Of a stretch of 64,000 bases of DNA, positions 19,094-57,468 are shown one piece after another. How positions within the stretch are numbered: position 1 is the stretch's first letter; every line of letters starts with the position of its first letter. The stretch is from positions 1 to 64,000 of the forward strand of contig JAURZM010000055.1 in NCBI GenBank assembly GCA_030653385.1, read 5' to 3'. The position numbers and the translations under genes are program-made. The notes under the pieces were generated by a model. That model did no database searches. It was given only the letters and a program-made list of their open reading frames with translations, and was not told the DNA's origin. The stretch is from Rubrivivax sp. (GTDB taxonomy: Bacteria > Pseudomonadota > Gammaproteobacteria > Burkholderiales > Burkholderiaceae_C).

Positions 19094-21085
19094 TCAGCTG
19101 TGTGCCAGCAAGCGCAGGATCTGCTGACCGTAGGCTTCCAGCTTCTTGCTGCCCACGCCGCTGATGCCGGCCAGGTCGTCCAGCGAGGCCGGGCATTCAC
19201 GCGCCATCTCGGCCAGCGTGGCGTCGTGGAAGACCACGTAGGCCGGCAGGTTGTGTTCTCGCGCCACTTCGGCGCGCCAGGCCTTCAGCGCCACGAAACG
19301 TTCGGTGGCGGCTTCGTCCAGCGGCAGCGGCGGTGGTTTGCCGGCGCCCCTTGAAGCGCTGTTTGCGCCCGCTGCGCCCGTGGCCCCGCGCACACGGCTG
19401 GCCTTCACCCGCGGCTTGCTTTCCGTGGGCACCCGCAGCAGCACCGGCACCTCGCCCCGCAGCACCTCGCGGGCGCTGTCGGCCAGCGCCAGCGTGTTGT
19501 AGTCACCTTCGGTTTGCACGTGACCCATGGCGATGAGCTGCCGCAGCACCAGGCGCCACTGCGCTTCGCTCACGTCGGCGCCGATGCCGAAGGTGGACAG
19601 GCTCTCGTGGCCGTGTTGGGTGGTCTTGTCGGTGGTCTTGCCACGCAGCACGTCGATCAGGTGACCCGCGCCGTAACGCTGGCCGCCGGCCTGGCGGAAG
19701 CGGTAGATGCAGCTCAGCGCCTTGCGGGCGGCTTCGGTCGCGTCCCAGGTATCTGGCGCGCGCAGGCAGTTGTCGCAATTGCCGCACTGGGCCCCCAAGC
19801 TCCCTTCGGTCGCTGCCCCCCGAGGGGGCGCGTTCGAGCCCGGGAGACCCGTGCTCGAACCGTGTGCTGGTTCGCGGTAGGCTTGACCAAAGTAGCCGAG
19901 AAGGCGCACACGCCTGCAGTCGTGCGCTTCGCACAGCGCCAGCAGCGCGTCGAGCTTGGTTCGCTGCAGTCGCTTGAAGTCTTCATTGGCTTCGCCGTCG
20001 TCGATCATGCGGCGTTGGTTGACGACATCGGCCAGGCCATAGGTCATCCAGGCGTCGGCGGGCAGGCCGTCGCGCCCCGCGCGGCCCGTCTCCTGGTAGT
20101 AGCTCTCGATGTTCTTGGGCAGGTCCAGATGCGCAACGAAACGCACATCGGGTTTGTCGATGCCCATGCCAAAGGCGATGGTGGCGACCACCACCACCCC
20201 TTCTTCGCGCAGGAAACGGTCCTGGTGGCGGCGGCGGGTGTCGGCGTCCAGGCCCGCGTGGTAGGGCAAGGCGGTCAGGCCTTCGCCGGTCAGCCAGGTG
20301 GCAGTTTCTTCGACACGCTTGCGGCTCTGGCAATAGACGATGCCGGCGTCGCCGTCGTGTTCTTCGCTCAGGAAACGCAGCAGCTGTTTGCGCGGTTCGT
20401 CCTTCTCGACGATGGTGTAGCGGATGTTCGGCCGGTCGAAGCTGGCCACGAACAGGCGCGCTTCTTCCAGCTTCAGGCGCTGGATGATGTCGGCGCGGGT
20501 GTGGTCGTCGGCGGTGGCCGTCAACGCCAGGCGCGGAACCCCCGGAAACTGCTCGTGCAACGCGCTCAGGCCCAGGTATTCCTCGCGGAAGTCGTGGCCC
20601 CACTGGCTGACGCAGTGCGCTTCGTCGATCGCAAACAGGCTGAGCTGCCCACGTTCGTGCAGGCTCGTCAGCATGGCCATGAAACGTGGGGTGAGGATGC
20701 GTTCCGGCGCGGCGTACAGCAGCGTCAGGCTGCCTGACAGCAGGTCACGTTCGACACGGCGGGTTTCGTCGGCGTCGAGTGTGCTGTTCAGGAAAGCCGC
20801 GTTGACACCGGCTTCGTGCAGCGCGCCCACCTGGTCGTGCATCAAGGCGATCAGCGGGCTGACGACCACCGCCACACCCTGGCCCGAGCGGTGGCGCACG
20901 ATGGCGGGCACCTGGTAACACAGGCTCTTGCCGCCGCCGGTGGGCATGAGCACCAGTGCGTCGCCACCGGCCACCACGTGGTTGACGATTTCGGCCTGCG
21001 CGCCGCGGAAGGCGGGGTAGCCAAAAACTTCGTGCAGCACCTGCTGCGGCATTGAATCGGTGGCGGCGGAAAGGACGGCGGACAT
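19094..21085 (-). CDS. recQ: ATP-dependent DNA helicase RecQ, with an in-frame repeat insertion
   Basis: RecQ is a 3'-5' helicase acting in recombination and fork repair. Walker A TGGGKS lies near residue 50, DEAH in [16 protein letters not shown], then the RecQ-C winged helix and a C-terminal HRDC domain (about 585-663). The zinc module is [12 protein letters not shown]...CGNCDNC. In E. coli RecQ the first and second zinc cysteines are separated by 16 residues. Here the same 16 are followed by 27 extra residues (407-433, AHGSSTG...GAQ) before CGNC. The insert is Gly/Pro/Ser-rich and encoded by a palindromic GC-rich element. The frame and all four cysteines are preserved, so the protein is probably still functional. 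A sequencing artefact is unlikely because the insert is exactly 81 bp. Confidence 0.95.
19787..19867. repeat. 81-bp palindromic repeat element inserted in recQ
   Basis: The insert contains CCCCCCGAGGGGG and a separate stem GTTCGAGC/GCTCGAAC around a 13-base loop. Its complement shares CCGGGCTCG and CCCCCTCGGGGGG, in the same order, with the intergenic stretch 57407-57429, so it looks like a member of a dispersed intergenic repeat family. The boundaries were set by comparing with E. coli RecQ spacing, which I recalled rather than aligned. Confidence 0.7.
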
Positions 21086-27973: not shown

Positions 27974-28612
27974 ATGAATCCATCAAAAAGAACCTTGGGC
28001 GTGTTTTGGCTGGCCGCGGCCAGTAGCCTGGCGGCTTGCGGCGGCGGTGGCGACACCGCAGCGCCCGCGCCGCCGACAGCCGGCTCGCCGGCGCCCACGC
28101 CCACACCCAGCCCAACACCCGCACCGCCCACGGCGTCGCCCACGCCCGGCCCTGGCGTGGCCGGTACACGCGCCACCTGCGGCCTGGCCAATTTCGAAGC
28201 CGACCTGATGGCGCGCATCAACGCCCAGCGTGCCTCCGGGGCCAGCTGCGGTGCGGAAGGCAGCTTCCCCGCTGCAGCAGCCCTGAGCTGGAACGCCGCG
28301 CTGACGCAGGCATCGCTGGTGCACAGCGACGACATGATGGCGCTCAACTTCTTCAGCCACACCGGGTCCAACGGCAGCAGCGCCGGCCAGCGCGCCACGA
28401 ACGCGGGCTACGTCTGGCAGACCTGGGGTGAAAACATCGCCGCCGGTCAGCCCACGGTCAACAGCGTGATGGACGCCTGGGTGGCCAGCCCCGGCCACTG
28501 CGCCAACCTGATGAACGCCCGCTTCCGCGACATCGGCCTGGCTTGTGTCAGCGGCAGCGCAAACAACACCTACCGCAGCTACTGGACCATGACGCTGGGC
28601 ACAGCGCGATAA
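27974..28612 (+). CDS. CAP (SCP/PR1) domain lipoprotein
   Basis: The N-terminus ends in the lipobox LAAC at about residue 22, so this should be a membrane-anchored, exported protein. A Pro/Thr/Ala-rich linker (residues 30-65) leads to a CAP domain: HSDDMMALNFFSHTGSNG, YVWQTWGENIAAGQ and MDAWVASPGHCANLMN. These are the CAP blocks with the cavity His and Glu residues. Bacterial CAP proteins are secreted; some bind lipids and others are proteases, but most are uncharacterised. I chose ATG 27974 over 27962 because it gives a typical lipoprotein signal. Confidence 0.87.
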   Translation: MNPSKRTLGVFWLAAASSLAACGGGGDTAAPAPPTAGSPAPTPTPSPTPAPPTASPTPGPGVAGTRATCGLANFEADLMARINAQRASGASCGAEGSFPAAAALSWNAALTQASLVHSDDMMALNFFSHTGSNGSSAGQRATNAGYVWQTWGENIAAGQPTVNSVMDAWVASPGHCANLMNARFRDIGLACVSGSANNTYRSYWTMTLGTAR

Positions 28613-28696
28613 AGCTCCCAAGGGGGGTGTCCGCCATCGGCCCGGCGGAGCCGGTGCCGTGCGAGGCCGCTGTGCATGAACGACGTGGCTGAAGCG

Positions 28697-57259: not shown

Positions 57260-57375
57260 CAGCCCCGGTCTGGCGGGCCGACAGGACTGCCAGCCCTTCA
57301 AGGCCTGCCGCGGAACCGGCTCCGCCGGGCCGCTGGCAGAGCCCGCCAGCTTGCAGGCTGACAGGCCCTCGCAGG

Positions 57376-57429
57376 CTGAGAACAGTCCGCAGGGGCTGTT
57401 CTCAGTCCGGGCTCGGCCCCCTCGGGGGG
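57376..57429. repeat. Convergent-gene stem-loop plus dispersed repeat copy
   Basis: CTGAGAACAG and CTGTTCTCAG form a perfect 10-bp stem with a 10-base loop (57376-57405). Directly after it CCGGGCTCG and CCCCCTCGGGGGG (57407-57429) repeat the core of the element inserted in recQ. The stem lies between convergent genes and may act as a two-way terminator, but it lacks a T run. Confidence 0.6.
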
Positions 57430-57468
57430 TGGCGAAGGCGCGAAGCGACAAGCCTGGCGGTCACAACA

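Follow-up and report, generated by a model that had tools for sequence, protein, structure and literature searches.

The window analyzed here, a 64,000-nucleotide stretch of a Rubrivivax sp. contig, carries on its minus strand a gene for the ATP-dependent DNA helicase RecQ, in whose zinc-binding loop lies a palindromic repeat element that is predicted to be translated in frame (Table 1). The reading frame is open across all 663 codons, and the helicase, zinc/RQC, and HRDC regions of the protein are all intact. Between the first zinc-binding cysteine (C390) and the CGNCDNC motif there are 43 residues, compared to 16 in Escherichia coli RecQ (PDB 1oyw) and 15 in same-genus RecQs whose loop is empty. 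The surplus of 27 residues over the E. coli loop, encoded by 81 bp of GC-rich, palindromic DNA, agrees with the original prediction. The insert ends directly before the C434 codon, and the four zinc cysteines are undamaged.

Table 1. Features of the window (E-values are rough)
Feature	Position	Strand	Evidence
recQ, ATP-dependent DNA helicase RecQ, 663 aa	19094..21085	-	TIGR01389, 742 bits; alignment to PDB 1oyw, 4q47, 4tmu
Codon of first zinc-binding cysteine, C390	19916..19918	-	Invariant in 95 RecQs
Codons of zinc cysteines 2 to 4, C434 (19784-19786), C437, C440 (CGNCDNC)	19766..19786	-	Nearly or fully invariant among RecQs
Palindromic repeat element, predicted in-frame translation in recQ	19791..19868	-	Covariance model R1, 68.4 bits; BLAST copies
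Hairpin 1, 13 bp, CCCCCTCGGGGGG	19832..19860 (arms 19832-19844, 19848-19860)	-	Repeat search; pair counts
Hairpin 2, GCCCCCTCGGGGGGC, nearly invariant	19815..19829	-	Sequence; pair counts
Hairpin 3, GCGACCGAAGGGAGC	19799..19813	-	Pair counts (23 double changes at one pair)
Possible further decayed copy	28599..28671	-	R1, 26.0 bits; E 0.003 in window
Partial intergenic copy (hairpin 1 half), adjoining the copy at 57379-57461	57299..57342	+	R1, 30.0 bits
Divergent intergenic copy (near 57407)	57379..57461	+	R1, 21.7 bits; E 0.023 in window

Structural modeling of the loop, which the original prediction had suggested, gave an AlphaFold2 model (mean pLDDT, 81) in which residues 408 to 429 score below 50 and have no secondary structure, with better-modeled domains on both sides. 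This model used 95 RecQs; a run on 30 close relatives modeled the zinc region poorly. The insert loop is thus predicted to be unstructured, and the acceptor loop is probably solvent exposed and tolerant of added length. An insert of this kind would be structurally neutral, and the protein would remain active. The same loop holds unrelated low-complexity inserts in six other RecQs (L036 to L038, L053, L081, and L095), being acidic, alanine rich, or made of repeated GGAT units, which indicates that it is a general hot spot for length variation.

The element in recQ spans about 78 nucleotides, and the family model has 83 positions with a GC content of 0.7 to 0.8. Its predicted fold is more stable than all 200 of 200 dinucleotide shuffles (z = −3.0). 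Among the genome copies, the stem of hairpin 1 varies freely in sequence while its pairing is kept, and the stem of hairpin 2 is a near-invariant CCCCC/GGGGG. One pair of hairpin 3 is G-C in 14 copies, C-G in 13, and A-U in 10. The covariation in the genome copies exceeded that in 500 shuffles and in all slid controls. A search of Rfam with the element gave only subthreshold matches, with no family at the curated threshold. On average, 4.9 of the 6 reading frames of a copy are open (4.2 of 6 for shuffles), which suggests that landing in frame is often survivable.

The original prediction called for the copies of the element in the genome to be counted. In the assembly of this genome (a draft of 79 contigs and 6.0 Mb, with 7% contamination), BLAST returned 41 matches, and a covariance model (R1) built from 38 copies returned 115 at an E-value of ≤0.01, although its E-values are rough; the element is thus far from unique to recQ. 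A pattern made from its 37-nucleotide core matched 15 times, compared to 0 times for the reversed control, and matches to the element were found in 73 of 81 genomes of the genus. The intergenic stretch at 57407, which had been proposed to share the element, is a genuine copy but a divergent one: the shared sequence CCGGGCTCG is not its informative part, and much more similar copies are found on other contigs. The fragmentation and contamination of the draft might raise the suspicion of an assembly chimera, or the insert might be a chance GC-rich similarity. Such an artifact is extremely unlikely, as the same type of insert occurs at the same site independently in many assemblies and isolates, the core pattern was absent from its control, and the reading frame of recQ is intact.

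Using the window to train a codon model, we classified about 100 of the copies in this genome, as GC3 alone failed to separate coding from noncoding sequence. No copy but the one in recQ lay in an open frame flanked on both sides by a coding signal; the rest were intergenic. This bears out the central claim of the original prediction, that a normally intergenic repeat is read as protein here without breakage of the frame or the cysteines. The intergenic copies are positioned nonrandomly. For 79 of 100 copies, the gene to the right reads toward the GGGGGC end of the element, and in 73 of these 79 the stop codon is at most 10 nucleotides away; none of the 100 copies lies in a spacer between divergent genes. 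This placement suggests either a role at gene 3′ ends or a target preference. Judging from position alone, the element probably acts in its usual intergenic place as a 3′-end mRNA hairpin, either a stabilizer or a terminator.

The loci L261, L263 to L267, L272, L329, and L333 to L337 represent a second subfamily, whose 3′ part differs (CCCCCTTGAGGGGGAGCGGCGAAGCCGCTTCGGGGG) but which has hairpin 1 in common with the intergenic main form. Plasmid matches to the element came from only six records, several of them megabase sized, and nearly all were partial, so there is no sign that the element spreads on plasmids.

A second genome (G046), assembled in three contigs, gave a similar picture. Among its 30 classified loci, an in-frame copy within a gene body again occurred in recQ alone, here in the opposite orientation. 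Elsewhere in this genome, three copies in tandem (L309 to L311) separate a stop codon from the following gene. The frame of that gene stays open backward across the whole array, which may extend its protein at the N terminus.

We compared RecQs mostly from Rubrivivax and neighboring genera, many of them from metagenome-assembled genomes. Most same-genus RecQs have an empty loop with a uniform length of 23 residues; others carry inserts at the identical position. The alignment proposed in the original prediction thus finds that the 27 residues are not conserved in distant RecQs. The inserts among the RecQs examined fall into type A (the variant in the window; n = 10), type B (n = 4), one reversed copy, and one decayed copy. 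Since type B matches R1 only weakly (E = 0.001 to 0.16), the treatment of types A and B as one family rests on their shared architecture and core. Across 301 genomes of the family, the RecQ loop holds the element in about 20 additional genera. These inserts use at least three frames and occur in both orientations; one is reversed, by a weak match (L296), and another combines a full copy with a remnant (L298). Carriers include the named isolates Methylibium Root1272, Aquincola tertiaricarbonis, and Leptothrix discophora. Two same-genus RecQs (L056 and L057) have longer inserts with extra hairpins, and the genome of the window has the beginning of a comparable long form between genes (L190).

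A RecQ tree of 93 rows was built with the loop excluded. On it, parsimony required 10 changes for the 10 rows with type A, at least 7 of them forced by supported branches, and 4 changes for the 4 rows with type B. A single clade of type A RecQs was rejected (p-AU = 1.6 × 10−5). Sister RecQs differ in state: L034 (type A) pairs with the empty L060, L173 (type B) pairs with the empty L157, and L056 (type A) pairs with L113 (type B). The inserts of the window and L034 are identical at 73 of 74 positions (99%), whereas the recQ flanks are 81% identical, with 71% identity at the third positions of shared residues, and a sister relationship between these two RecQs was rejected (p-AU = 0.0014).

Inserts have therefore recurred at one loop position in many lineages, a recurrence that the original prediction did not foresee. 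It could be argued that the RecQ of an early member of the Burkholderiaceae received a single insertion, which its descendants inherited and repeatedly lost or eroded, as the site is identical everywhere, decayed inserts exist (L032 and L182), and several related genera seem to share type B by vertical descent. This history is improbable given the rejected type A clade, the different types held by sister RecQs, the near identity of the inserts of nonsister RecQs, the differing orientations (L039 and L296), and the uniform 23 residues of the empty loops. The recurrence appears to reflect mostly gain, through reinsertion or through conversion from the genomic pool, although parsimony separates gain and loss incompletely. 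Microhomology between the empty site and the element was rejected as a targeting signal because the matches were only 7 to 12 nucleotides long and varied in sequence.

To describe how the inserts are conserved, we compared ten type B RecQs of different genera. Amino acid identity was 0.765 in the insert and 0.773 in the flanks, whereas third positions at shared residues were identical in 91% of cases in the insert compared to 71% in the flanks. In five disjoint, residue-matched type B pairs, third positions matched in 106 of 114 same-residue codons compared to the 80.5 expected from the flanks, a value reached in none of 2,000 resamples. Sixteen type B RecQ inserts also showed compensatory changes at paired positions, with 15 double-change cells versus 4.2 ± 1.6 in shuffles. 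The excess at third positions, together with flank-level amino acid identity and the compensatory pairs, means that the type B insert is conserved, or renewed, as nucleic acid.

These results bear on two further explanations. The insert might be a functional feature of the protein selected for its amino acids, such as a partner-binding loop; it does recur and persist in many lineages, and unrelated glycine, proline, and acidic inserts share the loop. We consider this quite improbable, even less likely than a single ancestral insertion, because amino acids in the type B insert are no more conserved than those in the flanks while synonymous positions are far more so, because the peptides are unrelated between frames, because the loop is predicted to be disordered, and because close sister RecQs lack the insert. 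The other explanation is that the element in recQ is kept for its hairpins, for example as a structure in the mRNA that tunes recQ expression or as a DNA structure at that place. The third-position excess and the double changes in the RecQ copies fit it, but an evolving genomic pool yields the same pattern through repeated reinsertion or conversion, and most RecQs manage without the element. Renewal from the pool and selection on hairpins both predict conservation at the nucleotide level, and we regard selection on the hairpins as unlikely but the least unlikely of these alternatives.

RecQ is not the only host protein among relatives. B-like copies lie in frame in HrpA, once in L202 and twice in L208, and the empty sites are reciprocal, each protein lacking the inserts of the other. 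MnmA (L204) contains two in-frame B-like copies in opposite orientations, and DNA topoisomerase III (TopB; L212) has one inside a zinc ribbon.

Among known repeats, the nearest described one is the beta-proteobacterial repeat element (BRE), a multicopy, GC-rich chromosomal repeat of about 75 to 91 bp in Betaproteobacteria, including Comamonadaceae (Hot et al. 2011, PMC3110155). BRE is mostly intergenic and at times tandem, with some copies entirely within coding sequences (PMC3110155). The element resembles BRE in size, GC content, and copy number, in its mostly intergenic placement, and in forming a tandem array. The text consulted (PMC3110155) names no in-frame host gene, RecQ site, recurrence, or hairpin covariation, all of which the element has. 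The nearest known process is the in-frame insertion of the Rickettsia palindromic elements (RPE), repeats found in frame in genes that likely encode functional proteins (Ogata, Claverie, and colleagues; summarized in PMC3733652). On this account, the element is RPE-like in lying in frame in conserved proteins (RecQ, HrpA, MnmA, and TopB). The hosts of RPE are AT-rich, obligately intracellular alphaproteobacteria, and the RPE sequences are probably unrelated to the element. Unlike RPE, only about 1 in 100 copies of the element is coding, one loop has been hit repeatedly, and a free-living betaproteobacterium of high GC content carries it. From host group and GC content, membership in the Rickettsia or Wolbachia RPE families is unlikely.

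Like REP/BIME, the element places hairpins at gene 3′ ends and is absent between divergent genes; unlike them, it is longer and has three hairpins, and no RAYT gene flanked by copies was found. We rejected a RAYT transposase as the mobilizer, since the sole RAYT-like gene (L186) scored 51 bits, below the NCBIfam cutoff of 80, and the surrounding 3.3 kb contained no R1 match. This gene encodes a RAYT-like Y1 transposase and lies near an RHS-type gene. Neither a target duplication nor a mobilizing gene was found for the element inserts. What is new here is that one site in RecQ has been hit repeatedly, that the inserts differ in frame and orientation, and that they are conserved as nucleotide sequence.

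Taken together, we conclude, with a probability of roughly 0.8, that the 27 extra residues of RecQ are a REP/BRE-like dispersed intergenic repeat that has been repeatedly inserted in frame into a permissive loop of the zinc domain. A copy of the hairpin-forming intergenic repeat would have entered recQ without shifting the frame, directly ahead of the codon for the second zinc cysteine. Since the element is GC rich and poor in stop codons, it would be translatable in most frames, and since the loop tolerates added length, purifying selection on RecQ would retain only the inserts that keep the frame and the cysteines. A more specific proposal is that the zinc loop is a dedicated acceptor, with the element repeatedly delivered to, or homogenized at, one codon boundary and kept for its hairpins. 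This is rather doubtful, somewhat more so than a hairpin role in itself; if true, a hairpin-forming repeat would have settled in the gene of a helicase able to unwind hairpins.

Protein-coding palindromic repeats have so far been a curiosity of the Rickettsiales, and the process is now seen in a GC-rich, free-living bacterial family. Sister species have vacant sites, one loop of a widespread repair helicase has taken up the element in many independent events, and copies of the element persist in the same genomes, which makes it directly testable how intergenic repeats become protein. Comparison of sister species makes it possible to ask whether it is the hairpin or the peptide that is kept.
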